NCBI RefSeq assembly: GCF_964204645.1
Contig: NC_134030.1
Coordinates: 1,405,855 to 1,469,854, forward strand
Source: Tubulanus polymorphus
Taxonomy: Eukaryota > Nemertea > Palaeonemertea > Tubulaniformes > Tubulanidae
Reading direction: 5' to 3'
Length of the DNA: 64,000 nt
A model generated the notes under the pieces. The model made no database searches, was not told the origin of the DNA, and saw only the letters and a program-made list of their open reading frames with translations. The position numbers and the translations under genes are program-made. Shown here in pieces: positions 12,294 through 46,500 of this stretch; position 1 is the stretch's first letter, and each line of letters starts with the position of its first letter.

Positions 12294-12356
12294 ATGCCAA
12301 AAGCAACAAAAAAAACACGGGGCGCGGGCCCCTCACATTCAAGCCCGTATAATAAA
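12294..12356 (+). CDS. Exon 1 (ATG exon), unit 1
   Basis: Twenty-one codons starting MPKATKKTRGAGPSHSSPYN, then a GTAAGT donor. The start was chosen because the ATG sits three bases after a TTTTTCTAG acceptor and is kept in every copy. Ungapped comparison with the unit 2 exon gives 10 differences in 63 nt, seven of them synonymous codon changes. The histidine region may instead be one inserted and one deleted base. Confidence 0.7.
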
Positions 12357-13533
12357 GTAAGTACAAATTTACTGCTTCCATGCTTATTTATTCATCCCAT
12401 ACTTAGTATTTTGTACCCCTGGGTCCAGTTTCACAAAAAGGATTAACGCCTAAATCGATTTAAGATAAACTGAATTAATGAAGAAATTAAATCGATTTAA
12501 GAGTTAAACCTGTTTGTGAAACTAGGCCCTGAATTGCATCTAGAATGAAAAAAAAAGAAAAAAAAATATTGAAAATAACGTTGGTGAAATATTTCTGGAT
12601 CTCTCTGGATTTCTGCTCAATGCATCGTTTAGTAAAATATCGATATTCTCTAAAAGTAAAGATATAAGAATAAAAATATTGTATTGAATCGTGATTAGTT
12701 ACTGTATGCGCTGCTAGTTGTTGCCCAACCCATAGCCTCATTTCTCTCCATTCTAAATTTGCATTGTTTAACATTGTCTGGTCGCTATGGAATCTATTTA
12801 TTTAAGTTTCTTTGTGGTATCCATGGCAACAGTAACGTTTAGGTAGTGGCACCAATTATGGGTCCCAACGTTCCCATGGCGATACATGAGAACATTTATC
12901 CTATTTTTGACCTTCATGACGTAAGATGGTAGTGAGTCGATGACGTCATTTTCGTCTCACCACTAATGAAAAAAAAAATGAAATGAAAAAAAAGGAAAAA
13001 ATCGTTAGAATTACGTTTATAAAATTTTTCTCGATCGGCTAAATGTATTGTTCCATTAAATATCGACATTCTCTAAAATTATAGGCATCAATATCAAAAT
13101 GATGATACAGCAGACTCCGCTTAACTCTGTTCTATTTGGACCATTAATTAACCGAATACCAACTTTTTAAAATTTTAGGATTTTTACGTTAAGGATCAGA
13201 AAATGTGTATGCAATTTCAACCGGGTACCGAGTAGGGTGGCCGAGTCTACTGTAGTCTGCTGCCCCCTCGAATCCATTACCTTATTATCTCTCAATTTGC
13301 ATTGTTTGACCTCGTCTGGTTGCTATGGAAACTATTTAGTTATATCAGGAACGGTTTTTTCGAGGTAACCAGTGGCAACAGTTAACAGACGTGTCCATCC
13401 TAGAGATAAACTGTCTGATTTCACAGCCACATCCGTCCTGGAGATAAACTGTTAGATAAACTCTGATTTCGCGTCTGTCCTATTTCTTGTCATTGTATGA
13501 ATATGTTTTCTCTTTTATAGGGTACAGCGCAGC

Positions 13534-13573
<40 letters not shown>

Positions 13574-16500
13574 GCAACAACAACAAAAATTTAATATTTC
13601 TATGTCGGGAATAGACGTAAGTTATCGTAAACGCCTGTTTGAAGTCATCATTCTTGAGCTTGAAACCGAAATTTATATATATAGAATATTAAACCCTGCT
13701 TCTGCTACTGACAGGTAATGTCCGTCATACATTACTGCATCGTCAAATCTATACCAGGGTGCACCCAGGCAGATCGTTCGCATCATCACATGCAAAGGGC
13801 TGATTATTTTGGAACCCAGTTTTTATCAGCTGGAACATTCTGCACATTCGACCATATTGATTGATAGCCCGTTATAGACGAGTGGAGAAAACTGAAAAAC
13901 CAGTTCGGAAAAACTTCGATTGATTTCACTCACATTTACAGAAATTTGGTCCGACCCCAAAACCATTTACTTACACTATACAAATCAGATCAGGTTTTTA
14001 ACATTGTCTTTGATTGTATTTTCAGTTTTTACCGACAACGCCGCCGAGCGGTTCTTCTACGCCGGTAAGTGACAACTATTTTCTAATAAATCACGCTTAT
14101 TTCAATTTGTAATTTGAAAATAGAGGGTAGTAGCTGTTATGCATAGATTATGCTAATTAGGAATAAATTCAAATTCGATTAAGTCTCATCATCGTAGAAG
14201 TCATATATTAATGATGCTATCTCTACAGTTGTCATTTAAATTAAGTGTTATATTTACTACTTCATTTGCTTCATGACCCAAAAACCTCTACTATATAACT
14301 ACTGGTTTTGTTCTAATCTTGGAGAATTTGCTGCAAAATTTACTTATCATTTGTTAAACAGTTTTTATTGAAAACCTGAATCAGTGATACATGCATTCAT
14401 GAATATCCATCTAATATTTTGTTTTATTTTATCTTTACAGGATTTATCACCGATACAGCACGTGGACGTAAGAGATTAAACATTGATCTTGAATTTTAAG
14501 TTCAAACTAATTTATTTTTTATCTCACTCGGGACTATAGTTATTGCGTTCACTTTGCGTCCAGTTGTCTCGGGTAGTTTTTGATTTATCGTGTTGATAAT
14601 TGGTTTATATACTCAAACTCAAAATATCGGCGCAATTGGAATTAAGATGGCGCACTTGTATGTCCATTTTTTTCCCCGGCAAAATTAGCACTTTAGCAGA
14701 TTTTAAGGATCAATTCTGTTGTTATATTACATTGAAATCAGAGTTTAATATATATCGGTATAGAGCAGGTTTTTGCTCTAGTTATAAATAAAGTTATAAA
14801 TAATCTCATGACATGTTCTGTATATGTGTAGTGAGTTTCAATGTCTTTGGTTCCTTTTAAACCAGGGGGAGTTAAATTTGAAAATGTCAGATCGTCGAGC
14901 ATTTCAGACCGCTTCCAAAGTGGGTCCCTGCACCCCTAGTTATACCGTTAATATTTTAATAATATATTGATATACCATACATTGATATCGGTCTTGTAAT
15001 TGGATCAACAACCATGAGATCAAAACACAGCAAATATGAACCTGCTGTGAATCAATAGATTTGTGATAAATGTAATGAAATTGTTATTTTTCATATTGAC
15101 TTTTTGAGTTAAGGGTCTGTTGTATAAGAGTATTTGGTCTCGCGTGTCAATGTATGATATCAATCTGTATTTCCTCGTTCCAATGTTTAAAAGGTGTTCG
15201 TCACCTTATATTAATAAACTACTTTTACCGTTAGATGGCGCCATAAGTGTGATATTTGATTTATGGGATACCCGCAAAACCAGCTATTCCACCAGATGGC
15301 GCAACGAGTAGTAGGTCGTTCGTTGTCAAAATTAGTTCATTTTCGATGAACTTTGAACTGGTTTGAAGAAGAAATACTTTCATTCTTCTACTCTGATATC
15401 GATTTAGTTTTCATTAATAATTGATTCATTTAAGAGAACAATTCATTCAGATTTAATTGAAATGTACAAGAAAATCGAACGCAGACGACCAACTATTTAC
15501 TAGCGACACCTGGTGGATCCTCGCCTGCCATAAGTGGAATCCTCGATTGCCACAGTAAGACTGCGGGTATCCCATTGTTTGGCGTGTGAATTAAAGTAAA
15601 GTTAGAAAACGGATGTTTAACTTTGTTGTGAAACGAAAGCGTTTTGGAGATTTTTAAACCAATCAAATCAATATTTTGATATTACGCTTGAAACCCTTCC
15701 CACTCATATTCTACTTACTAAGTATATATTCTTGTTTCCGTGGAAATCATGGTGAGTGGCGCCATCTATACAGTGGAGTTAGCTTTATAAATCGAGCATG
15801 ATTCGACAAGTGGCTCCATCTATTCCCTAATACTGAAGCGAGGTAACCAGCAGCGCCCTCATATACAGGAAATGAACGCCTATCAAGTTTAACAATGCAC
15901 GGTGTATTGACCACAGCGACCGGTGATAATTATATCAATGTTGATTAGCTATTGCCATAGACAGGTCCGTAGCGTTTGACTGGACCAGAACGGGGCCCCC
16001 TAACCAAAACAAATTTTGAAAACGTGCCCAGATAAATTGCCTCTGGGAGATTGATTTAACGAGGTTTTGATTAAATGAACAAATTTTAATATTTGTAAGT
16101 TTAACATTTCTGTTTTTAATTTTTCTTTGCAAGGAACTGAATTTTCGAACCCCCCTGAACCGCCTCAAGCTACATTCCTGATATAGTGCTAGCTATACCT
16201 GAATACTTTTCTCTTATTGAAATTGTCTAAAAAACCAGCACCTTGAACTAATGAACGTCATAATGAAAATGTTTAAAAATTCAACCGTTAATGAATTTGA
16301 CTAATATATTTTTTTTATTTTCATTTCTAGCGTCAGTTTGCCTCACAGGCAAGGTCGCCGTCGCTTAATGTAAGTATCAGTGACGCCCTCAATCTCACAT
16401 GCCTCACTTCCCTCCTAATGTAACCATTTTTATGAAATTCCTCAAGAAAATATATACTAGTAATCTTAGAATACACGTTTTTGTACCCAGACCCCTTCAT

Positions 16501-16587
16501 TCTACTGAACTACCGTGTAATAAGTGCCTGTTGTGTTCATTTTCTGTTGCATTGATTTATATATTATTTCTATTTACAGTTGTCAAA

Positions 16588-16618
<31 letters not shown>

Positions 16619-19600
16619 GCACCCCTCCCGCTGGAGACGCCTCCCGACTTGCAAGCAAGAAGTAAGTTCAGTCTTCAAATACAATTTCAATGCATTCAAT
16701 TTTGTGTATGGCGTTAAAACGGTTAAAGTTGTGACTAGTTTTCATAACTCCGTGACGTCATATTTCCATCGAGTACCGGACCCTTTCCTATGTTTTTTGC
16801 CAATTTGGATTGAATGATCGCCAGCGGTTTTTCTATACGACCCGGCTCTGCTGTATTGCATTTAGCCATCCTTTTTCTTGGCGTTTTTTATAAGAAGGTG
16901 TTTGATTTTGTCTCTAAGGGATTTAGGAATTTAAGAGACACTTGTACTCTCTATACAGTGAGTTTGTTCTGTTTTTGTTCCCTCGTGAATTTTATTTTTG
17001 TTTGGTATAATTTGATTTATCATAATCAAATCAAATCAGTGCATATTTCTTGAATTGCGTGTAAGTTATAATGTTATCAAATATCTGTTATATTTAAACC
17101 GAATATTTAATTGTTGTATTTTGAATGCGATAATGCCGCTCCCTGCTAAAGTCCAGCGTCGTCATCGTGAGGGATGCGGTCATCTGTTCGGGCCCTGATT
17201 ACGTTCTGTGTTCATCCTGTTGGGCTACATCGGGCGTTATATGAGTTAATCCTTCCTCGACTTGCGGATTGTGGTTGGAAGATCTATGGGTTCGGGCCGA
17301 TAAGTCCCGGAAATAGAAAGTACAGTTTCTGCCGATGTGCCCATTGATGTCTCTATTTCAGAACATCACAGCGGTCGCCGGCTGTACAAGCACGGTCGGC
17401 TTCCCAACTCCATTCTCTGAGGAGGATCGCTTGTTCTCTAGTAACGGTCAGTCACCAGTCAATCAACGGTTCAGCTGGTTCAGTTTCCCAGGTATCGGCG
17501 CGCGACAGTTGGGATACCTGCACAGGAACTCAGGTCAGGTCCGGGCTACTCCGAGCACCGGTCCGGTCCAGGCATCACCGGATACTGAACATCCTGTCCG
17601 GTAGCTTCGAGAACTGGTCCGGTCCAGGCATCACAGGGTACTGAACATCTGGTCTGGTCAGCTTCGAGAACCGGTCCAGGCATCACCGGATACTGAACAT
17701 CTGGTCCGGTCAGCTTCGAGAACTGGTCCGGTCCAGGCATCACCGGGTAATAAACATCCGGTCCGGTCCGGGTGGCTTCGAGCACCGGTCCGGTCCAGGC
17801 ATCACCGGGTACTGAACATCTGGTCCGGGAGCTTCGAGAACTGGTCCGGTCCAGGCATCACTGGGTACTGAACATAGAGTCCGGTCCGGTCCAGGCATCA
17901 CTGGGTACTGAACATCCAGTCTGGTCCGGTCCAGGCATCACCGGGTACTGAACATCCAGTCTGGTCCGGTCCAGGCATCACCGGGTACTGAACATCCAGT
18001 CCGGTCCGGTCCAGGCATCACCGGATACTGAACATCCGGTCCGGTAGCTTCGACAACTGGTCCGGTCCAGGCATCACCGGGTACTGAACATCCAGTCCGG
18101 TCCGGTCCAGGCATCACCGGGTACTGAACATCCAGTCTGGTCCGGTCCAGGCATCACTGGGTACTGAACATCCAGTCCGGTCCGGTCCAGGTATCACCGG
18201 GTTCTGATCATCCAGTCCGGTTCGGTCCAGGCATCACCGGGTACTGAACATCCAGTCCAGTCCGGTCCAGGCATCACCGGGTACTGAACATCCAGTCCGG
18301 TCCGGTCCAGGCATCACCGGGTTCTGATCATCCTGTCCGGTCAGCTCCGTGCACCGGTCCGGTCCAGGCATCACTGGGTACTGAACATCCAGTCCGGTCC
18401 AGTCCAGGCATCACCGGGTACTGAACAGGGTTCGTCGCGGTGCTTGAAAAGCTTGAAATGGCTTGAATTTGAAAAATACTACTCAAGCGCTTGAAAACAG
18501 CTTGAAAATAGATCGAAAGCTTGAAATAATTATTTTTGACTTGAAATAAAAAGTTATGGCTTGAAATGCTTGATTATCACAAATTTTCTTCTTCGCGAAT
18601 TTTTTTCGATGAAATCGCAGACAGAATAGGTTCTTGAGTTGTTTCTACGCGTGCGTCATGTTTTAGGCATCAATAAAGAAATTAATTGAATTGTATTGAA
18701 TCGCTATGAGACTCTTGTGGTGAAACTCTACGGTGTCTGGAGACATGAACATACGGGGAAATTTCAGTCATGCATGTTATCGAGCATTGATGTAAAATGG
18801 CATTGAAATCCCACACCAGGAGTGAGAGCCATGTTGAAGGCACCGCGACCTAGTCAAAGTCATTGAACATTACAAATTTCGTATTAGGCCATCCAAAAAT
18901 CAAGGTCTGTTTGCCGTCATCCGACCGACCCGACTTCAAAGGTACCCAGTGGAAACTTTTTTCTTGGATTCATTGAAATAAATTGTATTTTTGATACAAA
19001 TGGCCGACCCACTGCCGATGTATGAGCTATGTATGTTTGAAGTTAAGTGTGCATCATGTGAAAACATGCCTCGACTATTTAGTTGAAGTTTTCCAGGAAA
19101 CTGGCAGTGTTCCAATAAGCTGCCATTCATTCTAAAGCTGGTAATGTTATAGCGTGCATATATTCAATCTACTGTTTCATTTTGAACGCAGATTTCGGAT
19201 GTTGTTTCCGCTAAAAGTGGTGATGATAAATTTGTTGTTTTTTTTGCCCCAAAATTTTGCAAAAAAAAAATGATGCTACCTTCCTACTGACTTATCCCAA
19301 AAATAGTAGGTGTGACGGCAAAACAGACAATTAATTTGGGATGGCCAAATATCCAAATCTTGATTGATATGAATATTTAAGCTAGGAAATGCTGAAAATC
19401 ATTTTGATGAACAGGTTTCATCTCTAACAGAATCGTATCAACTCGGAGGTTCCACTGGAATCAAAATTTTACCTCTTTTTTAACATTTTTATACGAACCT
19501 GTTCAAAATAGGCAAATTGGCTGTTTCGAATTTAAAACATAGTTATCATGGGTCTAGGTTTGGTAGAGGGCGCTCTTCTACCAGATGCGGGAGCGAGGTC

Positions 19601-22600: not shown

Positions 22601-25552
22601 TGAGATGATACCGATGTGATACAATTCCAGTAAGTCAGGTTTAGGGAATAGATATTTAAACCCTCAGATGATACCGATGTGATACAATTCCAGTAAGTCA
22701 GGTTTAGGGAATAGATATTTAAACCTTCAGATGATACCGATGTGATACAATTCCAGTAAGTCAGGTTTAGGGAATAGATATTTAAACCTTCAGATGAAAC
22801 CGATGTGATACAATTCCAGTAAGTCAGGTTTAGGGAATAGATATTTAAACCTTCAGATGATACCGATGTGATACAATTCCAGTAAGTCAGGTTTAGGGAA
22901 TAGATATTTAAACCTTGAGATGAAACCGATGTGATACAATTCCAGTAAGTCAGGTTTAGGGAATAGATATTTAAACCTTCAGATGATACTGATGAATTTA
23001 GCAATTTTGAATGAATTAAACCAATATGAGATTTCGATCCTAAGAATATTGGAAGCTTGTGTTTAACGTTACTAAATAGTAATATTATATAAAGCTAGAA
23101 GGACACGAGCGTATCCATTTTTTTGCCCGATCGCAACAATTAAATTCGCCGGTGAATTTATACGCCCGATACGAGCGGGTACCGATCTATCTATAAATCG
23201 GCCGTCACGGTGATTTCGTCGCCCGCCGACATTAAACATGTTCGATATTTACGCCGGTGTTCAGGTCACTTGTTAATTCGCTCGTCTTGTCGGCAAGCTT
23301 AAAAAGATTTAGAAAAAACTACAAATTCTCATTCCTGAATGAACTGGATTCATCTGGGTTCAGTTTCATGAGACACAGTTCAAACTGCTCTAGAATTTGA
23401 GTTTGTAATTAATGTATGTGATTATAATGAATTGTAATTTTTGTTTTACAGCTTTGGCATTTCGGTTAAGTCGTGCGTTCCGGCGGGAGGAGTTTGTACG
23501 TTTGTTTCTCCCGGAGTGTAAGTAGTTTAACTATTTTCATACAATATCATTTAGTGTGACGTATGTCACTGATAATCAAAATCTAATAATAACTGTTGAT
23601 CCGTAGTATTAACATTGTGCAATTGAAATCCTATAGTTGTTTTTAGAAAGGATAAATGGCGCCATCAATGTGACAATCGATTGTAAAGTTTAAGAAATGA
23701 ATGTTTAACCTCGCCGAGTACCAGAATTCTTAACCGTAGCATCGAAACCATTCGACTTGTTGTTTAATGTATTTCTCTCTATTTTTATTTTACAGTGATG
23801 ATCATTTTACAAGACTGCCCGTTTGGGGACTTGGTGGGGGAATTCAAAAGAAACTTGGTTCCCGATAGGATACCACCACCGGTTAATCCTATGTCGCCCG
23901 CTGCTGCCCCTCCCCAAAATCCGATAAATTCGCCTCAGCAGCGGCCTGTCAGACAGCCGCCCCCGGCCGCCACTCGTTCGTCAGACAGAGTCCGGGGACG
24001 GCTGTTTGAAGGAGATCTGACGGAGGTAAGAATCTTTATTTGTTTTCATATTTTATTCAGGATATCAGTTGAAGTTCAGCAAATAAATTACCAGACCTGT
24101 AAACAGAAGAGTAGTTATAAATTTCCATTTGCGGGTAAAACCCCATAGTCGAAAACCTTCGGTTATTGATCTATATCTGCTTAAGACCAATGGTTGTACA
24201 CACGAGTGCGAAAACTTATCGCTCAAACTTTGATTGTATCCATGGTAACGCGTACAGTATACTATGCGTGACTTACCGTTTCCTATCACTGGAATACAAT
24301 ACTGTTTTAGACCATGAGCGCCATCTGCGGCGGTCATAACGGACTGAGTGGTGATTGGCTGAAATGCTCGTCTACCGTGGTGACGATTATTCGGTGTTAC
24401 ACGTGCAGCAGACACGTCTCTGAATATCTAACATTTGATTGTTGTAACTCATCGGGAAAAATATGTTTATGAGTCGATTTTTTGTCGAAATTTTGTTCGG
24501 CAGAAAATTGGCTGCGTACGTCAAGAAGGCGGCTGATATTTGTATCGTGTGACCCCTCGTCCCGGTAATATGCCGACCCACGTACACCTGAGACCAGTTG
24601 CATAGTCAGAGCTTAGAATTAAGACCGTTCTAAGACCAACTTAGTTCTATAGCCAATCTAATAACTTGAGACCAGTCTTTAGATTTAAGACCACTTTTGG
24701 ACTTAAGTCTTGACCATGGAATCGGCCCCAGATGCTTATTCCGCTGTATTGGATGCTGACGTGCTCGTGTCTTCCAGCAATGTTGTTATTCACCAAAAAT
24801 ATCATGTTTTCTTCGAATAACACGATTCATCTGAGTCTGGGTTTAACGGATGACACGTTCAAACAGAACTACGAAATCAATATCAGAAGTCCTTTTATAT
24901 TGAAACGGTCCCAGAAGTCCCTGTTATAATGGGTACTTTTTCAAAAAAAGTAACGAGAACTCCGATGGCTTTCCGTATCGGTAAAAACTAACTATTTCTA
25001 TGAGCGTCACTCGTAGATTTACCGAAACGCCACCTTGTGACACGATATCCTAACTACGTATAGGTGTTTTATTTGCTGAATCGCTGGTTTCTCATTCTCA
25101 TTTTTTATACTTGTGTTTAATTTTTTACTAAACAAATTTTTCACTTTTTCTCTTTACAGACACGACCACCGCCAAAAAAAACTAGAACAAAAAGGAAAAG
25201 AAAAGTTGCGGTCGTCGTGGCTCCGCAGGGAGGAGGAGCAAGAGTGGTCCCGGCGGATGGTGCGGCTGACGAAGGTAATCGGGAGGAAGGGGAGGGGATA
25301 AATAGGAAGCGGCCGAGGAGGGATGGTGGTGGGGCTGGGGATGGTGCGGGTCCTGCTCCTCCTGCTCCTCCATCCGTATCTCGGGCGGTCACTCGTTCAC
25401 TCGCCAAAAAGCTGGCGAGTGAACGAGTGGCCCGAGAGGTAGAGGTGGTGGCCCGACATACGGATGGAATGTGGGAGGAGCGGCTTCGTTCGGGGACAAT
25501 TCCGGATTTGTTAACTGATTTAAAAAATATTCTTTCAGTGAAGGGATATTAG
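12294..25552 (+). CDS. Main gene, unit 1: ten-exon nuclear-like protein, family unknown
   Basis: Proposed join: 12294-12356, 13521-13616, 14026-14064, 14441-14467, 16331-16369, 16580-16661, 17372-17491, 23452-23517, 23796-24025, 25160-25552. The sum is 1155 nt, 384 codons plus stop, with phases matching at every junction. Residues 1-21 are basic (MPKATKKTRGAG), then a Gln19 run, Ser/Thr/Pro-rich linkers, a Ser run, an aromatic segment (FSEEDRLFSSNG), a basic/hydrophobic segment (LSRAFRREEFVRLFLPEL then MIILQD), a Pro-rich linker, KKTRTKRKRK, and a Gly/Ala/Pro-rich tail ending ILSVKGY. No signal peptide or membrane span is apparent. A nuclear location is inferred from the basic cluster only. 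Junctions 5-6 and 6-7 are the least certain. Confidence 0.65.
12357..13520. other. Intron 1, unit 1
   Basis: About 1.16 kb with no separate gene. Contains ATCGATTTAAG-type palindromic half-sites and two related blocks with GTCTGGT(C/T)GCTATGGAA (near 12776 and 13313). About 14 substitutions against unit 2 (~1.2%), which sets the neutral background for the exon comparison. Confidence 0.6.
13521..13616 (+). CDS. Exon 2 (Gln run), unit 1
   Basis: Acceptor TTTTATAG, donor GTAAGT, phase 0 at both ends. Encodes GTA, 19 glutamines (mainly CAA) and KFNISMSGID. Confidence 0.68.
14026..14064 (+). CDS. Exon 3, unit 1
   Basis: Thirteen codons, FLPTTPPSGSSTP, between TATTTTCAG and GTAAGT. Six of 39 nt differ from unit 2, and four of the five changed codons are synonymous. 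Confidence 0.65.
14441..14467 (+). CDS. Exon 4 (27-nt microexon), unit 1
   Basis: Nine codons, DLSPIQHVD, between ATCTTTACAG and GTAAGAG. Phase 0 on both sides, so it could be skipped without a frameshift. Confidence 0.6.
14468..16330. other. Intron 4, unit 1
   Basis: About 1.9 kb, intron-like. Includes several GATGGCGCCAT/GGCGCCATCTAT motifs and two CCTCG(C/A)(C/T)TGCCA motifs near 15518-15545. Small ORFs at 14600 and 15120 have no support; the second is lost in unit 2. Intron-like throughout. Confidence 0.5.
16331..16369 (+). CDS. Exon 5, unit 1
   Basis: Thirteen codons, RQFASQARSPSLN, between TTTCTAG and GTAAGT, phase 0. The other two frames would not fit the adjoining exons. Confidence 0.58.
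16580..16661 (+). CDS. Exon 6 (AGC/CAG run, frame ambiguous), unit 1
   Basis: Acceptor TATTTACAG, donor GTAAGT. In the frame that keeps the whole gene open it encodes LSNN, nine serines and APLPLETPPDLQAR, leaving one base for exon 7. If splicing instead uses the AACAACAG inside the exon, the repeat reads as glutamines followed by RTPPAGDASRLASKK and hits TAA within the donor, giving a short protein. Confidence 0.5.
16662..17361. other. Intron 6, unit 1
   Basis: About 700 bp between exons 6 and 7. GC content rises near 17130-17330. No additional exon could be placed with confidence. One is possible, because the exon 6-7 phase is the weakest link in the gene model. Confidence 0.45.
17372..17491 (+). 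CDS. Exon 7, unit 1
   Basis: Frame VAGCTSTVGFPTPFSEEDRL then FSSNGQSPVNQRFSWFSFP. It begins after the AG of AACATCACAG so that one base carried from exon 6 completes a Thr codon. The stronger-looking acceptor ends at 17361 and would add NITA in the same frame, but needs a phase-0 exon 6. The donor GTATCG is weak. A second in-frame donor (CTCAGGTCAGG, exon end ~17533) would add 14 residues. Confidence 0.5.
17520..18425 (+). repeat. ~40-bp GGTCCGGTCCAGGCATCAC minisatellite, unit 1
   Basis: About 20 units of ~40 bp (GGTCCAGGCATCACCGGGTA then CTGAACATCCAGTCC), some lengthened by AGCTTCGAGAACT. It starts at the end of exon 7 and occupies the start of intron 7. GC-rich in an AT-rich region. Confidence 0.95.
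18426..19523. mobile_element. Same DNA transposon, right end deleted, unit 1
   Basis: Starts with the same CAGGGTTCGTCGCGG inside the minisatellite. It breaks at about 19523, where a ~256-bp deletion took the right terminus and the following minisatellite units. The element therefore pre-dates the separation of the two units. Confidence 0.72.
19671..19867 (+). repeat. 35-bp GTCGAGGGACCGTTTAGGAAG repeat, unit 1
   Basis: Six copies of a 35-bp unit, GTCGAGGGACCGTTTAGGAA then GTTCACGTCTTTCAC, in intron 7. The last copy is truncated. Confidence 0.94.
19868..20440. other. Intron 7 middle, unit 1
   Basis: Holds a diverged tandem pair built on AAGATGGCC(G/A)CCACAG(C/T)(C/T)AT followed by a CTTAAG-rich palindrome (near 20089-20225). 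A C run occurs at 20408. No gene seen. Unit 2 carries one extra ~175-bp copy here. Confidence 0.5.
20440..21810 (+). mobile_element. Decayed DIRS-type retrotransposon fragment, unit 1
   Basis: In three interrupted frames the plus strand reads pieces typical of DIRS reverse transcriptases: AIEPVRDEATSGWFS near 21080, VPIHPKSHQF with FQFRSLPVGLSTA near 21290-21390, and VYLDDWLLVPNS near 21613, which contains the YxDD-type active site. Upstream is a gag-like stretch with a 24-bp repeat encoding APAPAAQGS (20636-20745). Frameshifts and stops separate the pieces and no tyrosine recombinase domain was found, so it is a dead fragment in intron 7. Assignment rests on remembered family motifs. Confidence 0.7.
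22245..22990 (-). repeat. 63-bp satellite with open minus frame, unit 1
   Basis: Twelve copies of a 63-bp unit (AATTCCAGTAAGTCAGGTTT then AGGGAATAGATATTTAAACC). As 63 is a multiple of three, a 254-codon minus-strand ORF stays open (repeat SVSSEGLNIYSLNLTYWNCI plus T), but I see no start context or neighbour supporting translation. On the plus strand every copy contains a donor-like CAGTAAGT shortly before exon 8. Confidence 0.93.
23192..23240 (+). promoter_or_regulatory. Possible internal TATA promoter upstream of exon 8, unit 1
   Basis: A TATAAATCGG box lies in a GC-richer patch 260 bp before exon 8, with an ATG (ATGTTCGATATTTACGCC) 46 bp downstream. That ATG frame stops after 12 codons, so if the box is real the product would be non-coding or need other splicing. 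The unit 2 equivalent keeps TATAAATCGG near 54588. Weak evidence. Confidence 0.22.
23452..23517 (+). CDS. Exon 8, unit 1
   Basis: Acceptor TTTTACAG, donor GTAAGTAG. Enters with two bases and leaves one: A, LAFRLSRAFRREEFVRLFLP, E. An amphipathic, Arg-rich segment. Only this frame is open and it links exons 7 and 9. Confidence 0.65.
23796..24025 (+). CDS. Exon 9, unit 1
   Basis: Acceptor TTATTTTACAG, donor GTAAGAA, 230 nt. Reads LMIILQDCPFGDLVGEFKRN, then a Pro/Gln-rich linker and TRSSDRVRGRLFEGDLTE, ending in phase 0. Confidence 0.68.
24026..25159. other. Intron 9 with a possible relic or alternative exon, unit 1
   Basis: Mostly intron. From 24718 two overlapping plus frames look protein-like: MESAPDAYSAVLDADVLVSS to HVFFE then stop, and a second that continues NNTIHLSLGLTDDTFKQNYE to RSQKSLL then stop. 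Together they suggest a former exon with a frameshift, or an alternative exon. Splice phases do not join either to exons 9 and 10. The unit 2 equivalent is at ~56105-56318 with one replacement. Confidence 0.35.
25160..25552 (+). CDS. Exon 10 (terminal coding exon), unit 1
   Basis: Acceptor CTCTTTACAG, then 130 codons and TAG. Starts TRPPPKKTRTKRKRKVAVVV with a nuclear-localisation-like basic cluster, followed by Gly/Ala/Glu-rich sequence, a second basic cluster (NRKRPRRDGGG), a Pro/Ala stretch and SVSRAVTRSLAKKLASERVA, ending ILSVKGY. Much GC-richer than its surroundings. The SRAVTRS...ASERVAR region is a DNA palindrome. Three partial inverted copies lie elsewhere in the unit. Confidence 0.72.
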   Translation, partial: TRPPPKKTRTKRKRKVAVVVAPQGGGARVVPADGAADEGNREEGEGINRKRPRRDGGGAGDGAGPAPPAPPSVSRAVTRSLAKKLASERVAREVEVVARHTDGMWEERLRSGTIPDLLTDLKNILSVKGY

Positions 25553-25608
25553 GTGCCTTGAACGCATGAGTCGTTCATGCGCGCCTAATATGCCTTCACT
25601 GAAAAAAA
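25533..25608 (+). other. Long hairpin at the 3' end of the gene, unit 1
   Basis: Overlaps the stop codon. Outer arms TTTCAGTGAAGG-ATATTAGG and CCTAATAT-CCTTCACTGAAA pair over about 20 bp with one mismatch. An inner stem CGCATGA/TCATGCG closes it. It could be an RNA 3' end or stability element, or the terminus of a foldback element that supplied the stop codon. Confidence 0.6.
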
Positions 25609-26190: not shown

Positions 26191-26194
26191 ATTA

Positions 26195-33304: not shown

Positions 33305-34009
33305 CCTATTGTTTAATGAATTGGTAGAAATTCTATTTTTAGGTGACAGGTCAAATAGATTAGAACAGTAATTTATGCAGAGGTTGAATTAATTTAATGT
33401 TTGATATACCAAAGAATGGTTTATTGTGAAGATTTAATTAAAATCTTAAATAAAGAGTTGTTCAATTTCATAAATGTTTTGTTTTCGATGAAGTTTTTTC
33501 ATTTTCTGGATTTGAGGAATTTGACTTTAAACACATCGGTGGATTCAGCACAGTTCTGTGGACACAGTTTTGGGACCGAGACACAGCTCAAGACCCAGTT
33601 ACAAGTTCAACTGGACTCCATCCCAAAAAACCCTGGGCCCTTCAAACCTTTAAGTAAGATGCTCACTTACAGATTCATAAAATTGACCCTTATTATCTTG
33701 TCATCTGCAGAACCATCTCAAGAGGCTTAAACCAAGAATTTCTTGTAATGTTCAACAAATGTGAATTACATTAAGTAATTTTTGAGATCGACTAACACCA
33801 GTATTGAGTTTTTTCTAAATCACAGTCTACTTATTTTATATTCATCCACGATTTCATAGCTCTTTAACTATTCAACCCTTTCCCTGATGGGCCCTGGCCC
33901 CAATTGCTGAACCCAGTTCTCCAAGTCTAACTTCTGGGTTTAATGGTTTATCAGAGAATTAATGGATTAATTGGAAATAATCTAACAATCAATAAAGTTG
34001 TTCTTTTTT

Positions 34010-34067
34010 GATACGGGCTAGAAGTTGAGGGGCCCGCGCCCCGGGTTTTCTTTAAAGCTTTTGGCAT
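34010..34067 (-). pseudogene. Inverted truncated copy of exon 1, unit 2
   Basis: Identical to the unit 1 inverted copy, same breakpoint and neighbours. Confidence 0.85.
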
Positions 34068-34136
34068 TATCTAGAAAAACAAGTAAAAATATTAAATCAT
34101 TTGAAAATATATCAGTCAGTCTTATTCTGGTTCAGT

Positions 34137-34622
34137 GAACTAATTCTCTATATGGTGCATGTAGGGGTCCGGGGACACGACATCCACTAATTCTCTATAT
34201 GGTGCATGTAGGGGTCCGGGGACACGACATCCACTAATTCTCTATATGGTGCATGTAGGGGTCCAGGGACACGACATCCACTAATTCTCTATATGGTGCA
34301 TGTAGGGGTCCAGGGACACCACATCCACTAATTCTCTATATGGTGCATGTAGGGGTCCAGGGACACCACATCCACTAATTCTCTATACGATGCATGTAGG
34401 GGTCCAGGGACACCACATCCACTAATTCTCTATATGGTACGTGTAGGGGTCCAGGAACACCACATCCACTAATTCTCTATACGATGCATGTAGGGGTCCA
34501 GGGACACCACATCCACTAATTCTCTATATGGTGCGTGTAGGGGTCCAGGAACACCACATCCACTAATTCTCTATACGATGCGTGTAGGGGTCCAGGGACA
34601 CCACATCCACTAATTCTCTATA
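34137..34622 (-). repeat. 47-bp satellite, inverted block, unit 2
   Basis: Same ~10 copies with the same internal variants as unit 1. Opposite in orientation to 42103-43432. Confidence 0.95.
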
Positions 34623-34896
34623 TGTCGAGGGAGCTCTATCAATCAAGGAACAGTCGGCTCACAAGCAGCCCCTGCCCAAAAGGTTTTGACATTATATTTT
34701 CAAAAGCTCTAGTTGTTCTGTAGAACCGAGAGCGGAGCTCTGACTTGTTCCCCTCACTGCTGAGGTCTACTTTCTCTGATTCGCTGATTGGCTTCTCTTT
34801 GGTACATTTTAGATGATCAAAAACTAGAAACTGTCATGCGTTTATTCATTTGGGTATATGTTAAAATTCTTTTACAGTAATGGCATATTAGGCACA

Positions 34897-36908: not shown

Positions 36909-37186
36909 CTTTCTCTGGTGGAAATTTCTTCGTGGAATTCCTCTTCTATACAAGTTCCTCCTCAGACTGTTTTTATGCGAGAGTTTATAACAACCGGATC
37001 CTCAGAAAATGGTCGGAGTGCCAAGTCTTCGATTTAAGATCACCAGTCTTATCTGAGACCATAAGTTCACTAGCAAGTTTCACTAGCGATTCCAACAGCT
37101 ATAGGATGGAACAGTATTATTATATAGGTCACCACTGTGCAATTGAGCCCAGATCATCAGAAAAAGATAAAAGTGAAGATATGTGA
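36909..37186 (+). CDS. Orphan exon-like ORF, unknown product, unit 2
   Basis: Same sequence and reading frame as 7625-7902, including the acceptor-like site and the terminal SEKDKSEDM. Function unknown. Confidence 0.35.
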
Positions 37187-38873
37187 TGGGATTCATTGAA
37201 AATTTTGCATATTTAATTAATTCATTGAACTACTTGATTTGTATGATTTATTTTTTGGGAATTTTCGAATTTGTCATCAATAACTAGTATATATTTCTTT
37301 TCAAGTTGTGAGCGATCTAGTTCTCTGTCGACCCATTGAAAGTGAATCGACTCTGAACTGTAGAACTGGACCCAGGGAGCTGAATCTCGCGTGCCACAGC
37401 AAGATACAGAGCTCTTCAATGTCTTAACCGTCAGGTGCTGCCCCTAAACAAATCAATAGCGGTAAATCTGTGAACTAACTTATAGCTCGCTTGCCAGAGT
37501 AGAATGATAGCGAGCTGTCTAAAATCTTGAACCGTCTAGTGCTGCCCCTTTATCGATATGTATCGGAAAAGTGAATTTATTACTCGCATGCCACAGTAGT
37601 TGAGTAGTTGGAACATCATGATAGACTCGTTTTTCTGTGCAGCTATAACGGGAACTATTTCAGATCTGATAATGAATATAAACTCAGTCACAGTTCGATA
37701 ACAAACGCCGCTGGGTGAAATTGATGTAAACAAATAATCGTGTTGAAATTGAATTTAGTTTAAGATATATTTTCGTGGTAGTTTTTATTTTCAAGCTGTT
37801 TACGTTCACTTCAAATGATGAAACGATGAAACCATATTAAATACATCCCTGTTTTAGTGGGGATTTTGAGTTTTGGTCCTTTCCGTATCTTCTAGAAACA
37901 TCAAGTAGAAAGGCATTAACTGAACCCTATGTCTTTAACTTCAGGAGTCTATATGGAGTTTTCGGATGCCTCTTTTCCTCACTTCTTGCATTCGTCACTA
38001 TTAGAAATCCGGACAAACTGAATTCAGTTCGACGAGGCCGAAGAACAGAAGATCTGCACTAGCCGCAGGGTTCGTGTTGGCTTGGATCGGTGGGAGGCAA
38101 TCAAACCCCGACACGTGAAGATGTATCCTCAAAAATGGATACCGGAACGCTTCTCTGGTTTACGATGATTAGTCTGCAGGGATAACTCTTTGGCGGGGCG
38201 TGATCGCGTGAATAGCCCAAACTAAACCTTCAGAGTTCACTGTACTACAGCATACAACATCTGATAACTTGCATAATAAAGCGCGGCGTGCATGAAAAGA
38301 ATTGTATAAATGCGGGCAAGATTCCGTGCCCTGGCAATCGAACGCCGGAGTGGAGGTATTCCATACACTGGTAGGTGAGTCGGAGCATAGACTGGTTGCT
38401 TGTCCCATAGAGACCGGTAACCAGTCTAGCCACCTCACGATCAGTCTACATTGAAAAACCATTACTGAAATATGGTTGACGGAAATATTCATTTCATATC
38501 AGATTCTGAAATATTTTCTCGTATTGACTACAAAATTTTTATTATCTTTATAAGATAAATCTGCCAAAGCTCAACAATTTGAATTAGTGAAAACCGATGT
38601 GCGAAGTCGTCAATTCAGTAGCCCGATAGAGCCCGGTAACCAGTCTAACTGTCAATGTTCATTGCGCGGGAATGAACGGGCAACCAGTCTACGATGAAAA
38701 ATCATTTCTGAAAAATTATGAACGGAGATATTCATTTTACTTTGAATTTTGAATTATCTTATAAAACTGACAGCCATATTAACCAAAGTATTAATAGTAA
38801 ATCTGATAAAATCTAATACCGGTTTTAGAATAGGTGAAAACTGATTTATGTGATGCCGTCGGTTCAGAAGACT

Positions 38874-39055
38874 GATCCGTAGAATCGTTCGCCACTTTCT
38901 TCCGGTCCACTTACTTCCGCGTTTGTGATTTGCATACAAGTAGTTTGAATGTTAAATGTATTAAGCCGCGTGTTGATTGGTTGAGGTCAGTGCGGTTTAC
39001 TGAACGATGACCAGCTGTCAGCTGATCGAATCATTCGTTTCACAGACATTACGAC
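38874..39055 (+). promoter_or_regulatory. Candidate promoter and 5' non-coding exon, unit 2
   Basis: Same ETS-like, octamer and inverted CCAAT motifs, with the GTAAGTA donor at 39056. No changes seen in any of these motifs relative to unit 1. Confidence 0.45.
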
Positions 39056-39672
39056 GTAAGTATATTTTACATCTTTGATCAAAAATTGTAGTGTAAAAAA
39101 ACTCAAAACTAAGGCCTCTATAAATGATCGATTGACTTTAAATGATTACTTTAGCACAGCTCTTGTAGACAATGATTAGGTGTCATAGTAGTTTAGCTCG
39201 AAAGTGCACATATAAGGTTAATTTTCATCCCTTATTTAGAGACCGAGGTATTGAGCGTCCATTTCAGCCCTTAAAACATCATCAACCTACCTCAAACTGA
39301 CTGTTTTTAAATCCAGCAATAGTTAACTATTGACTCATCATGGATTCGATTCAAAAACAATTTTTGATGATCATAGTGATTCGAAACGTTTGAATTTTTG
39401 AAAAACACGAATGCTAAACGACGGATCCGGACTTCGATTGCGGCCCAATGCCAGAGTTGATTTTCTTATTTGGAATTTGAAGATATAAATCACTGAAATC
39501 AATTGGTTTTCTCAACCAAAATTAAAATTAAGAAGAATTTAGGATGGAGATGTTTGATTTTCATTTTGTCTAAAATGCCGACTTAAAAATTAATTCAATT
39601 GAATCAAATTAATGAATTCATCATTTCACGATATTATAGATAATCAAAATGTGAATATGAAATCACCTTTTC

Positions 39673-42052
39673 AATCGCTGTTTTTGGGTAAGATCGCAGT
39701 TTTTAGGTAAGATCGCAGTTTTTAGGTTAGATCGCTGTTTTGAGGTTAGATCACCGTTTTTGGTTAGATTGCTGTTTTGTGTTAGATCACCTTTTGTGTT
39801 AGATCACAGTTTTTGTGTTAGATCGCTGTTTTTGGGTTAGATCGCTGTTTTGTGTTAGATCGCTGTTTTAGGTTAGATCGCAGTTTTTAGGTTACATTGC
39901 AGTATTTTGGTTAGACCGCAGTTTTTTGTTAGATCGCAGTTTTTAAGTTAGATCGCTGTTTTGGGTTAGATCACAGTTTTTGTGTTAGATCGCTGTTTTA
40001 GGTTAGATCGCAGTTTTTAAGTTAGATCGCTGTTTTGGGTTAGATCACAGTTTTTGTGTTAGATCGCTGTTTTAGGTTAGATCGCAGTTTTTAAGTTAGA
40101 TCGCTGTTTTGGGTTAGATCACAGTTTTTGTGTTAGATCGCTGTTTTTAGGTTAGATCGCAGTTTTTAGGTTACATTGCAGTATTTGGGTTAGACCGCAG
40201 TTTTTTTGTTAGATCGCAGTTTTTAAGTTAGATCGCTGTTTTGGGTTAGATCACAGTTTTTGTGTTAGATCGCTGTTTTTAGGTTAGATCGCAGTTTTTA
40301 GGTTACATTGCAGTATTTGGGTTAGACCGCAGTTTTTTTGTTAGATCGCAGTTTTTAAGTTAGATTGCTGTTTTGGGTTAGATCACAGCTTTTGTGTTAG
40401 ATCACAGTTTTTGGGTTAGACCACAGTTTTTTTGTTAGATCGCAGTTTTTAAGTTAGATCGCTGTTTTGGGTTAGATCACAGTTTTTGTGTTAGATCGCT
40501 GTTTTTAGGTTAGATCGCAGTTTTTAGGTTACATTGCAGTATTTGGGTTAGACCGCAGTTTTTTTGTTAGATCGCAGTTTTTAAGTTAGATTGCTGTTTT
40601 GGGTTAGATCACAGCTTTTGTGTTAGATCACAGTTTTTGGGTTAGACCACAGTTTTTTTGTTAGATCGCAGTTTTTAAGTTAGATCGCTGTTTTGGGTTA
40701 GATCACAGTTTTTGTGTTAGATCGCTGTTTTTAGGTTAGATCGCAGTTTTTAGGTTACATTGCAGTATTTAGGTTAGACCGCAGTTTTTTTGTTAGATCG
40801 CAGTTTTTAAGTTAGATCGCTGTTTTGGGTTAGATCACAGTTTTTGGGTTAGATCGCTGTTTTGGGTTAGATCACAGTTTTTGTGTTAGATCGCTGTTTT
40901 GGTGTTAGATCGCTGTTTTGGGTTAGATCACAGTTTTTGGGTTAGATCGCTGTTTTTGGGTTAGATCGCTGTTTTGGGTTAGATCACAGTTTTTGGGTTA
41001 GATCGCTGTTTTTGGGTTAGATCGCTGTTTTGGGTTAGATCACAGTTTTTGGGTTAGATCGCTGTTTTTGGGTTAAATTGCTGTTTTTGTGTTGGATCAT
41101 TGTTTTTTGTGTTAGATCATTGTTTTTGGGTTAGATCGATGTTTTTGTGTTAGATCGCATTTTTGTGTTAGATCACTGGTTTTTTGTTAGATTGCAGTTT
41201 TTAGGTTAGATCGCTGTTTTTGAGTTAGATCGCTGTTTTGTGTTAGATCGCCGTTTTGTGTTAGATCGCCGTTTTTAGGTTAGATTGCTGTTTTTAGGTT
41301 AGATCGCAGTTTTTGTGTTAGATCACTGTTATTGTGTTAGATAGCAGTTTTTAGGTTAGATCGCTGTTTTTGGGTTAGATCGCTGTTTTTGAGTTAGATC
41401 GCTGTTTTTAGGTTAGATCGCAGTTTTTGTGTTAGATCACTGTTATTGTGTTAGATAGCAGTTTTTAGGTTAGATCGCTGTTTTTAGGTTAGATCGCTGT
41501 TTTTAGGTTATATCGCAGTTTTTGTGTTAGATCACTGTTATTGTGTTAGATAGCAGTTTTTAGGTTAGATCGCTGTTTTTGAGTTTAATCGCCTTTTTGG
41601 GTTAGATCACAGTTTTTGTGTTAGATCACAGCTTTTAGGTTAGATTGCTGTTTTTAGGTTAGATCCCTTTTTTTTCTTAGATCGCAGTATTTAGGTTAGA
41701 TCGCTTTTTTTGGATTAGATCGCTGTTTTTGGGTTAGATCGCAGTTATTGTGTTAGATCGCAGTTTTTTGTTAGATCGCTGTTTTTGGGTTAGACCGCAG
41801 TGTTTAGGTTAGATTGCAGTTTTTGGGTTAGAACACTGTTTTTCTGTTAGATCGCAGTTTTTTGTTAGATCGCTGTTTTAGGTTGGATCGCTGTTTTAGG
41901 TTAGATCGCAGTTTTTTGTTAGGTCGCTGTTTTTGGGTTAGAAAGCTGTTTTTGTGTTAGATTGGTGTTTTTAGGTTAGATCGCTATTTTTGTGTAAGAT
42001 CGCTGTTTTTGGGTTAGATCGCTGTATTTGGGTTAGATCGCTGTCTTTGTGT
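39673..42052. repeat. ~18-bp GTTAGATCGCTGTTTTT minisatellite, unit 2
   Basis: Same array expanded to ~2.4 kb. It shows higher-order repetition: a block of about six units ending in GGTTACATTGCAGTATTTGG recurs several times between 40000 and 40800. Confidence 0.95.
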
Positions 42053-42102
42053 TTTTGTCAATCATCATATCAAGATTTGCAATCCCAGTTGCCTTCAAGT
42101 TT

Positions 42103-43432
42103 CATATAGAGAATTAGTGGATGTGGTGTCCCTGGACCCCTACACGCACCATATAGAGAATTAGTGGATGTGGTGTTCCTGGACCCCTACATGCACCATA
42201 TAGAGAATTAGTGGATGTGGTGTCCCTGGACCCCTACATGCACCATATAGAGAATAAGTGGATGTGGTGTCCCTGGACCCCTACATGCACCATATAGAGA
42301 ATTAGTGGATGTGGTGTCCCTGGACCCCTACATGCACCATATAGAGAATTAGTGGATGTGGTGTCCCTGGACCCCTACATGCACCATATAGAGAATTAGT
42401 GGATGTGGTGTCCCTGGACCCCTACATGCACCATATATAGAATTAGTGGATGTGGTGTTCCTGGACCCCTACATGCACCATATAGAGAATTAGTGGATGT
42501 GGTGTCCCTGGACCCCTACATGCACCATATAGAGAATTAGTGGATGTGGTGTCCCTGGACCCCTACATGCATCATATAGAGAATTAGTGGATGTGGTGTC
42601 CCTGGACCCCTACACGCACCATATAGAGAATTAGTGGATGTGGTGTCCCTGGACCCCTACACGCACCATATAGAGAATTAGTGGATGTGGTGTCCCTGGA
42701 CCCCTACACGCACCATATAGAGAATTAGTGGATGTGGTGTCCCTGGACCCCTACACGCACCATATAGAGAATTAGTGGATGTGGTGTTCCTGGACCCCTA
42801 CATGCACCATATAGAGAATTAGTGGATGTGGTGTCCCTGGACCCCTACATGCACCATATAGAGAATAAGTGGATGTGGTGTCCCTGGACCCCTACATGCA
42901 CCATATAAAGAATTAGTGGATGTGGTGTCCCTGGACCCCTACATGCACCATATAGAGAATTAGTGGATGTGGTGTCCCTGGACCCCTACATGCACCATAT
43001 AGAGAATTAGTGGATGTGGTGTCCCTGGACCCCTACATGCATCATATAGAGAATTAGTGGATGTGGTGTCCCTGGACCCCTACATGCACCATATAAAGAA
43101 TTAGTGGATGTGGTGTCCCTGGACCCCTACATGCACCATATAGAGAATAAGTGGATGTGGTGTCCCTGGACCCCTACATGCACCATATAGAGAATTAGTG
43201 GATGTGGTGTCCCTGGACCCCTACATGCACCATATAGAGAATTAGTGATGTGGTGTCCCTGGACCCCTACATGCACCATATAGAGAATTAGTGGATGTGG
43301 TGTCCCTGGACCCCTACATGCACCATATAGAGAATTAGTGGATGTGGTGTCCCTGGACCCCTACATGCACCATATAGAGAATTAGTGGATGTGGTGTCCC
43401 TGGACCCCTACATGCACCATATAGAGAATTAG
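42103..43432 (+). repeat. 47-bp satellite, forward block, unit 2
   Basis: About 28 copies, roughly 12 more than unit 1, with segments of CACGCACC variants near 42610-42760 that suggest block amplification. Confidence 0.96.
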
Positions 43433-43501
43433 TTCACTGAACCAGAATAAGACCGACTGATATATTTTCAAATGATTTAATATTTTTACTTGTTTTTCTA
43501 G

Positions 43502-43564
43502 ATGCCAAAAGCCACTAAGAAAACCCGGGGCGCGGGGCCCTCAACATCTAGCCCCTATAATAAA
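43502..43564 (+). CDS. Exon 1 (ATG exon), unit 2
   Basis: Twenty-one codons starting MPKATKKTRGAGPSTSSPYN. The ATG directly follows TTTTTCTAG, without the extra AAG of unit 1. About 70 nt of upstream intron carry one difference and the first ~107 nt of downstream intron none, in contrast with the exon itself. Confidence 0.7.
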
Positions 43565-46500
43565 GTAAGTACAAATTTACTGCTTCCATGCTTATTTATT
43601 CATCCCATACTTAGTATTTTGTACCCCTGGGTCCAGTTTCACAAAAAGGATTAACGCCTAAATTGATTTAAGATAAACTGAATTAATGAAGAAATTAAAT
43701 TGATTTAAGAGTTAAACCTGTTTGTGAAACTAGGCCCTGAATTGCATCTAGAATGAAAAAAAAGAAAAAAAAATATTGAAAATAACGTTGGTGAAATATT
43801 TCTGGATCTTTCTGGATTTCTGCTCAATGCATCGTTTAGTAAAATATCGATATTCTCTAAAAGTAAAGATATAAGAATAAAAATATTGTATTGAATCGTG
43901 ATTAGTTACTGTATGCGCTGCTAGTTGTTGCCCAACCCATAGCCTCATTTCTCTCCATTCTAAATTTGCATTGTTTAACATTGTCTGGTCGCTATGGAAA
44001 CTATTTATTTAAGTTTCTTTGTGGTATCCATGGCAACAGTAACGTTTAGGTAGTGGCACCAATTATGGGTCCCAACGTTCCCATGGCGATACATGAGAAC
44101 ATTTATCCTATTTTTGACCTACATGACGTAAGATGGTAGTGAGTCGATGACGTCATTTTCGTCTCACCACTAATGAAAAAAAAAATTAAATGAAAAAAAA
44201 GGAAGAAATCGTTAGAATTACGTTTATGAAATTTTTCTGGATCGGCTAAATGTATTGTTCCATTAAATATCGACATTCTCTAAAATTATAGGCATCAATA
44301 TCAAAATGATGATACAGCAGACTCCGCTTAACTCTGTTCTATTTGGACCATTAATTAACCGAATACCAACTTTTTAAAATTTTAGGATTTTTACGTTAAG
44401 GATCAGAAAATGTGTATGCAATTTCAACCGGGTACCGAGTAGGGTGGCCGAGTCTACTGTAGTCTGCTGCCCCCTCGAATCAATTACCTTATTATCTCTC
44501 AATTTGCATTGTTTGACCTCGTCTGGTTGCTATGGAAACTATTTAGTTATATCAGGAACGGTTTTTTCGAGGTAACCAGTGGCAACAGTTAACAGGCGTG
44601 TCCGTCCTAGAGATAAACTGTCTGATTTCACAGCCACATCCGTCCTAGAGATAAACTGTTAGATAAACTCTGATTTCGCGTCTGTCCTATTTCTTGTCAT
44701 TGTATGAATATGTTTTCTCTTTTATAGGGTACAGCGCAGCAACAACAACAACAACAACAACAACAGCAACAACAACAACAAAAATTTGATATTTCTATGT
44801 CCGGAATAGACGTAAGTTATCGTAAACGCCTGTTTGAAGTCATCATTCTTGAGCTTGAAACCGAAATTTATATTATAGAATATTAAACCCTGCTTCTGCT
44901 ACTGACAGGTAATGTCCGTCATACATTACTGCATCGTCAAATCTATACCAGGGTGCACCCAGGCAGATCGTTCGCATCATCACATGCAAAGGGCTGATTA
45001 TTTTGGAACCCAGTTTTTATCAGCTGGAACATTCTGCACATTCGACCATATTGATTGATAGCCCGTTATAGACGAGTGGAGAAAAACTGAAAAACCAGTT
45101 CGGAAAAACTTCGATTGATTTCACTCACATTTACAGAAATTTGGTCCGACCCCAAAACCATTTACTTACACTATACAAATCAGATCAGGTTTTTAACATT
45201 GTCTTTGATTGTATTTTCAGTTTTTACCCACAACGCCGCCCAGTGGTGTTTCGACGCCGGTAAGTGATAACTATTTTCTAATAAATCACGCTTATTTCAA
45301 TTTGTAATTTGAAAATAGAGGGTAGTAGCTGTTATGTATAAATTATGCTAATTAGGAATAAATTCAAATTCGATTAAGTCTCATCATCGTAGAAGTCATA
45401 TATTAATGATGCTATCTCTAAAGTTGTCATTTAAATTAAGTGTTATATTTACTACTTCATTTGCTTCATGACCCAAAAACCTCTACTATATAACTACTGG
45501 TTTTGTTCTAATCTTGGAGAATTTGCTGCAAAATTTACTTATCATTTGTTAAACAGTTTTTATTGAAAACCTGAATCAGTGATACATGCATTCATGAATA
45601 TCCATCTAATATTTTGTTTTATTTTATCTTTACAGGATTTATCACCGATACAGCACGTGGACGTAAGAGATTAAACATTGATCTTGAATTTTAAGTTCAA
45701 ACTAATTTATTTTTTATCTCACTCGGGACTATAGTTATTGCGTTCACTTTGCGTCCAGTTGTCTCGGGTAGTTTTTGATTTATCGTGTTGATAATTGGTT
45801 TATATACTCAAACTCAAAATATCGGCGCAATCGGAATTAAGATGGCGCACTTGTATGTCCATTTTTTTCCCCGGCAAAATTAGCACTTTAGCAGATTTTA
45901 AGGATCAATTCTGTTGTTATATTACATTGAAATCAGAGTTTAATATATATCGGTATAGAGCAGATTTTTGCTCTAGTTATAAATAAAGTTATAAATAATC
46001 TCATGACATGTTCTGTATATGTGTAGTGAGTTTCAATGTCTTTGGTTCCTTTTAAACCAGGGGGAGTTAAATTTGAAAATGTCAGATCGTCGAGCATTTC
46101 AGACCGCATCCAAAGTGGGTCCCTGCACCCCTAGTTATACCGTTAATATTTTAATAATACATTAATATTTTTATTTGATAGAATATATTGATATACCATA
46201 CATTGATATCGGTCTTGTAATTGGATCAACAACCATGAGATCAAAACACAGCAAATATGAACCTGCTGTGAATCAATAGATTTGTGATAAATGTAATGAA
46301 ATTGTTATTTTTCATATTGACTTTTTGAGTTAAGGGTCTGTTGTATAAGAGTCTTTGGTCTCGCGTGTCAATGTATGATATCAATCTGTTGTATTTCCTC
46401 GTTCCAATGTTTAAAAGGTGTTCGTCACCTTATATTAATAAACTACTTTAACCATTAGATGGCGCCATAAGTGTGATATTTGATTTATGGGATACCCGCA

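Follow-up and report, generated by a model that had tools for sequence, protein, structure and literature searches.

A predicted nine-exon gene in repeat units of ~31 kb

The window, the whole stretch of 64,000 nucleotides analysed here, belongs to a Tubulanus polymorphus contig (NC_134030.1, hereafter C6; window C6:1405855-1469854). It carries copies of a ~31 kb unit with a predicted gene whose exons, mainly at silent sites, differ between copies far more than the introns beside them. Nine exons (E1–E9), all on the plus strand, were predicted from splice consensus and reading frame, the gene beginning at 12294 (copy 1) and 43502 (copy 2). E1 occupies 12291–12356 in copy 1, as AAG plus a coding part of 63 nt, and its coding part in copy 2 lies at 43502–43564. 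E2, which contains a CAA tract, was placed at 13521–13616 in copy 1 and, after subtraction of the window offset from C6:1450582-1450665, at 44728–44811 in copy 2. The predicted E3 spans 14026–14064 and 45221–45259, respectively. Further downstream in copy 1 are E4 (14441–14467, 27 nt), E5 (16331–16369, 39 nt), E6 (16580–16661, with a CAG tract), the predicted E7 (23452–23517), E8 (23796–24025) and E9 with the stop codon (25160–25552). The E7–E9 region of copy 2 extends over 54848–56941 (C6:1460702-1462795).

The predicted protein contains stretches of poly-Q and of poly-S and ends in a basic tail. No match at E 0.001 was obtained with the 345-aa version (scoring the 8000 candidates that shared most words), nor at E 1 with residues 90–323 of a 324-aa version. 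DUF6508, the sole Pfam match, was below threshold at E 0.15 and was not accepted as an identity.

We searched the assembly (268 Mb, 77 contigs) and found at least 18 copies of the unit on C6, at least nine on contig C3 and at least one on contig C8, these numbers being lower bounds because 40 of the 773 candidates were scored. The main sample comprised 28 copies (18 on C6, nine on C3, one on C8) compared over E1–E6, giving 378 pairs. Genomic loci are labelled L0xx, and window copy 2 (W2) corresponds to L022. For E8 and E9, 20 regions (16 on C6, four on C3) were fetched from the 27 outside the window that reach the end of E9 at full or near-full length. E7 exists in two unalignable versions: the one in the window was found at this place in both window copies and in 3 of the 20 fetched regions, the other 17 being unalignable there. 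The family members listed lie at 0.65–1.75 of 23.0 Mb in C6, 0.40–1.33 of 27.8 Mb in C3 and 15.07–16.34 of 16.7 Mb in C8. Their position within ~2 Mb of a contig end suggests subtelomeric arrays, if contig ends are taken as chromosome ends.

The CAA and CAG tracts were excluded from the border, synonymous divergence (dS), variability, linkage, scan and close-pair counts. Window copy 2 was present twice, as W2 and L022, in the C6 border diversity profile and in one E2 alignment (19 rows for 18 copies), and both window copies were doubled among the rows of the E4–E6 alignment. W2 was excluded from the dS, site-variability, linkage, exon-blind scan and close-pair analyses, and kept as partner for the window-pair comparison.

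Exon and intron divergence among the copies

Between the two window copies, 10 of 63 positions are substituted in E1 and 6 of 39 in E3, as a preliminary description of the window had reported, and 11 of the 13 changed codons in these exons are synonymous (alignment inspected by eye). The near-identical flanks it described were also recovered, with one substitution in the 70 nt upstream of E1, none in the 87 nt upstream of E3, and 14 in the 1163 bases of intron 1 (~1.2%). In the 107 nt downstream of E1, realignment gave one substitution in place of the reported zero, and the near-identity holds. The AAG directly before the ATG, read as exon sequence, is lost between the copies. Substitutions were 0/408 in intron 2 and 4/376 in intron 3. 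E8 and E9 had no differences. To call the divergence confined to E1 and E3 was slightly too strong: their excess stands, and E2 (four substitutions plus a change in CAA length), E5 (2/39) and E6 (3/82) differ too. Altogether, 22 of 251 exon positions and 37 of 4164 intron positions were substituted (Fisher P = 2e-13, CAA and CAG tracts excluded). Where segments of the unit were aligned, clusters of at least four close substitutions fell in tandem repeats (one of them at the alignment edge), E1 and E3. The further version of E1 noticed in an inverted fragment is real; the fragment, which also contains a 47-bp minisatellite, lies on the minus strand at 4703–5340, and at 33987–34624 in the second unit.

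The 28 copies confirmed this observation and showed it to be larger than first stated. The dS was 0.49 in E1, 0.66 in the E2 tail, 0.41 in E3, 0.12 in E4, 0.18 in E5 and 0.057 in the E6 tail, compared with 0.017 in introns, so more copies did not bring exon and intron divergence to equality. Beyond E1 and E3, the effect extends to E2 and, in part, to E4, E5 and E8. Silent sites varied 18.8-fold more than introns within C6, and 23-fold more in seven proximal C3 copies. The pooled ratio of nonsynonymous divergence (dN) to dS was 0.21, with E5 as the exception at 0.72. Diversity in E9 was at the intron level and in the E6 tail near it. In E4, one of 27 sites was variable in C6, and its first bases vary in some C3 and C8 copies.

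Among the 28 copies, E1 had 21 nucleotide haplotypes, and the exons form mosaics, with no fixed gene classes. The E1 reading frame is intact in 27 copies, the remaining one (L015) having a 1-nt gap, and the amino acid varies at E1 codons 5 and 15. An assembly or polishing artefact, for example from polishing with RNA reads, would produce boundaries at splice sites. Such polishing is, however, expected to make exons more alike, and the many E1 haplotypes with a preserved frame, as well as the exons joined without introns described below, make an artefact extremely unlikely.

When diversity was plotted across the exon–intron borders of many copies, the change fell at the splice sites. In C6 it rose from 0.0032 over the final 20 bases of the intron to 0.066 in the exons, and fell to 0.0018 over the first 20 bases of the intron that follows. 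The step was less steep in C3 (0.0097, 0.108 and 0.0056), where introns further off reached up to 0.026. The borders of E4, E5, E7, E8 and E9 are displaced by 1–2 bp in some multi-copy comparisons. In the final 27 nt of E2, eight sites were variable among the main copies, seven of them third positions, reaching the fourth base from the donor, and the first 151 bases of intron 2 had two variable sites (window rows and matches starting more than 2 bases inside intron 2 excluded). The peptide of this E2 tail, ISMSGID, is invariant in 28/28 main copies despite the variable silent sites. With ten fragment copies added, 12 of the 27 exon sites (eight third positions) and 3 of the 151 intron sites were variable. 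Upstream of E8, 0/60 intron bases varied in the 20 fetched copies; within E8, substitutions cluster at 23802–23818 and 23919–23927.

A scan blind to the exons returned eight intervals, five of them in exons: 16331–16353 in E5, 12292–12355 in E1, 14029–14061 in E3, and 13587–13613 and 13521–13528 in E2. The E1 and E3 intervals end one and three bases off the splice sites, respectively, and those of E5 and one of E2 begin exactly at the acceptor. The other three are considered below.

Linkage within exons fades over about 20–30 bp. An argument that the sharp border alone excludes selection was dropped in view of this decay, and the weight of the evidence falls on the tail of E2 and on the fragment copies. 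Most C6 segment pairs were weakly correlated in their exon and intron distances, which left that test without discriminating power. Four-gamete violations at 16–60 bp were more frequent in exons (0.72–0.79) than in introns (0.17–0.29), and in C6 three to four states were found at 10 of 41 variable exon sites versus 1 of 152 variable intron sites.

Block-wise change, joined exons and diverged relatives

For the close-pair comparison, we used the 22 of the 378 pairs with the nearest introns. L032 and L034 differ at 4 of 3863 intron sites, at 11 of 66 sites in E1 and at none in the other exons compared (Fisher P = 2e-17, post hoc). Alike are L032 and L037 (11 differences in E1, one other exon change), and L011 and L022 (12 in E1, one other exon change plus one in E6). 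The pairs L020/L021 and L023/L024, also with close introns, have zero exon differences. Where at most one local intron difference was present, E1 differed at 0–1 sites in five of ten pairs and at 7–14 in the other five. E3 had no substituted sites among its 39 in the nine C3 copies, compared with 11/39 in C6; five of the nine carry a 9-nt insertion. A strongly variant E5 is shared by L028, L035 and L036, from two contigs, and is 15–17 of 39 sites off the three copies compared. The intron downstream of it has 0/40 differences, followed by 7–10 in bases 41–100. For E1 and E3, discrete replacement is a better fit than a mutation rate uniform across exons.

Mutation limited to exons was one of three candidates in the preliminary description; it could act, for example, by error-prone reverse transcription of spliced RNA and re-entry into the gene, filtered by purifying selection. 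The multiple states per site, the frequent four-gamete violations in exons and the low dN/dS agree with it. It fits poorly with an E3 free of substitutions in C3 and variable in C6, with the low variation in E4 of C6, the E6 tail and E9, and with an E1 that changes by 11 sites when the other exons compared change by none, and we regard it as very unlikely.

The C6 region also holds shorter, rearranged family members, mostly on the opposite strand. L042 lacks introns 1 and 2, so that E1, E2 and E3 run on directly, with the usual intron upstream of them and intron 3 downstream. In L038, L040 and L041, E1 and E2 are joined, with a normal intron 2 after them. These four joints, one of which reaches E3, were read letter by letter. 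E1–E2 joints without intron 1 were found in 14 places in all. Judged by coordinates, E1–E2 is covered in one piece by 7 of the 40 matches to the L042 sequence, two of them reaching E3; four further joints came from a spliced-exon search (678107, 1041281, 1044724 and 1047404), and three further ones lie in loci near 1622103, 1723057 and 1492996. The reading frame is disrupted in some joined copies. Even old E1 copies whose flanks have diverged can be aligned into the beginning of intron 1, so this intron looks ancestral and the joined forms would be intron losses. We read them as such from the alignments, intron loss being what cDNA recombination usually leaves behind; a gain of introns by the other copies would be less likely.

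In the compact copies (L040, reverse strand, at about locus positions 2190–1300), a second E1 is joined to E2 after the intron 1 start. The junction lies at a shared string, GATTTAA, resembling microhomology, and repeats about every 2.7–3.4 kb. In the joined E1 of L042, a one-base gain and a one-base loss cancel out.

More distant relatives were recovered as well, with ten matches on C8 to the E8 region at 49–74% amino-acid identity. By sequence, old members of the family exist on C8 and C6. Mobile introns of the introner type, expected to recur at unrelated places in the genome, were rejected for intron 2, the intron searched: all 58 matches listed lie in family regions of C6, C3 and C8 (40 of 46 candidates scored).

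The reading we favour, with a probability of about 50%, is that old segments of exon size entered a young array by import, with intronless templates as the simplest source. The 31 kb units would be young or kept homogeneous, with introns about 1–2% apart, but would contain old exons, chiefly E1, E2, E3 and part of E8. Exon-size segments of long-diverged family members would have been copied into young gene copies, either from a spliced transcript reverse-transcribed to cDNA or from cDNA-derived cassettes of joined exons in the array. Once there, the variants would have spread through ordinary gene conversion. As the import is bounded by splice sites, its template was most simply one without introns. 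We infer the transfer as variant source, the intronless template and the later spread; import of this kind explains the silent excess, the low dN/dS, the border, the blocks and the joined exons. Of the earlier candidates, exon-length conversion from a paralogue or cDNA thus fits best. More tentatively, spliced transcripts of diverged members may repeatedly rewrite single exons in the germline and leave the introns as they are.

Alternatively, the donors could be old genomic paralogues with unrecognisable introns, so that DNA conversion stops at the exon ends and no RNA step is needed. The diverged paralogues on C8 and C6 and the old E1 copies with diverged flanks would suit this. Diverged exons of 27–96 nt would, however, be very short homology for conversion, and the intronless joints are left unexplained; we consider this improbable.

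The fragment copies bear on the main rival to import, in which the unit evolves in concert, kept homogeneous throughout by DNA gene conversion, and conversions running across exons are eliminated by selection for exon differences. For E8, six of eight matches were used and two incomplete ones (L039) dropped; of E3, only two fragment copies were captured. In five of the six, E8 is 9–28 sites of 216–230 off the window copy, with 1–3/60 in the 5' flank and 1/30 in the 3' flank. Two of these five carry a 14-nt deletion in E8; their exon differs at 26/216 and 27/216 sites, their flanks at 1/60 and 1/30. In the sixth, L042, the 5' flank is diverged too (12/50), and the pooled 5' flank of the fragments therefore appears variable (13/60). 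E8 in the fragments, the mostly silent nature of the exon differences, and the invariant ISMSGID with its varying silent sites beside a nearly invariant intron all weaken selection against conversion, which we consider rather unlikely. The preliminary candidate of introns being homogenised without the exons loses ground in the same way, retaining its opsin precedent. Selection of this kind is a known type of explanation, described in the available text on catarrhine L/M opsins (PMC3213168), and the amino acids varying at E1 codons 5 and 15 could be its targets. Further patterns favour it and weigh against import: introns exchange freely in the array; C6 and C3 share both E1 right-block types, apart from one silent site; and the Tajima-type D is 0.27 and 0.80 in exons versus -0.93 and -0.95 in introns, exon frequencies leaning towards intermediate values that long-term maintenance would also give. 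A similar proposal of selection against conversion exists for exons of the major histocompatibility complex (MHC). The two may well combine in a mixed model, with import first and maintenance afterwards.

Other observations also speak against import. Three of the eight scan intervals are intronic (13907–13927, adjoining an insertion in C3, 16423–16426 and 16225–16314). In C3, E5 is variable at 17/39 sites only through L028 and L036, and at 2/39 without them. The intron upstream of the variant E5 differs at 5–12/60 sites, so its tract is not exon-bounded on that side; there and in bases 41–100 downstream, the background of this lineage is older. E6 and E9 are unaffected, for which the import model gives no reason. 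At its end, the E1 of the joined copies has a motif that the main genes lack, so this end was not recently donated by the joined cassettes. The donor search proposed in the preliminary description yielded diverged paralogues and joined exons, and no donor of the variant exons was identified among the family matches. No reverse transcriptase was noticed by eye in the list of open reading frames of window positions 1–33000, to which no domain-library test was applied.

A further explanation is selection for silent change, by which copies would escape small RNAs derived from the array's antisense fragments. Both window units have inverted fragments with exon sequence, and the changes are mainly silent and exon-limited. 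Inverted E9-like copies, such as that at 5616–5984 (minus strand, adjoining the inverted E1 fragment), also recur, yet E9 is not diversified, and the exons of the fragment copies diverge as well. We therefore find this escape highly improbable.

Known systems and further features of the window

Exon-above-intron divergence is already known in converting gene families, and the nearest precedent is the gibbon L/M opsins. In the available text on these genes (PMC3213168), exon divergence, both synonymous and nonsynonymous, exceeds intron divergence, conversion is mostly in introns, and nonsynonymous divergence is not above synonymous; the explanation offered is intron homogenisation with selection-protected exons. 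Exons diverging more than introns, and dN not above dS, also apply here. The opsins are two functionally fixed genes with a synonymous divergence of about 6% (PMC3213168). Our family, in contrast, has 28 copies with a silent divergence of up to 0.66, no fixed classes, joined exons and a step at the splice sites.

In the viperid three-finger toxin genes, a process named ASSET switches exon segments and the introns stay similar, by a mechanism stated to be unknown in the text available (PMC2474615). The replacement of E1 without the introns (L032 and L034) is comparable. The same text describes distinctly different segments, an altered protein and insertions away from the exon–intron borders (PMC2474615), matching the toxin parallel with protein-altering changes drawn in the preliminary description. 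Here the changes are mainly silent and run to the borders, the pooled dN/dS is 0.21, and nothing is toxin-like.

In intron loss mediated by cDNA or mRNA (the reverse transcriptase model), adjacent introns are reportedly lost, the exons joined and the outer introns kept. Adjacent losses and joined exons occur here too; unlike under intron loss alone, the intron-bearing copies also carry exon-limited divergence. The leucine-rich repeat (LRR) genes of Tetrahymena with 90-bp exons are likewise a young family, subtelomeric or pericentromeric, with exon shuffling, and differ, in the text available, in that exon–intron units are shuffled, one possible two-exon fusion having been found (PMC6564038). 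In the open-licence literature searched, we found no report of a silent excess this large together with a step at splice sites and intronless relatives.

Silent sites serve as a neutral clock, and so do introns. In these genes the two disagree about 20-fold within the same copies, switching at the splice junction. Should import from spliced templates be the cause, the array would be a natural, many-fold replicated record of germline information flow from RNA to DNA, and a warning on dating duplicates by dS. RNA-templated replacement, if true, would be a routine route of RNA-to-DNA diversification in a eukaryotic gene family, with exons and introns of different ages. If selection is the cause, the family would be an extreme case of exons escaping concerted evolution.

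No tRNA and no match to Rfam families were found in the 64-kb window. The 47-bp minisatellite lies upstream of E1 on the plus strand at 11455–12222, with 16 units, and its second copy, at 42103–43433, has 28. A 19-bp repeat also differs in length between the two window copies, with 54 units at 10395–11405 and 127 units at 39674–42053.

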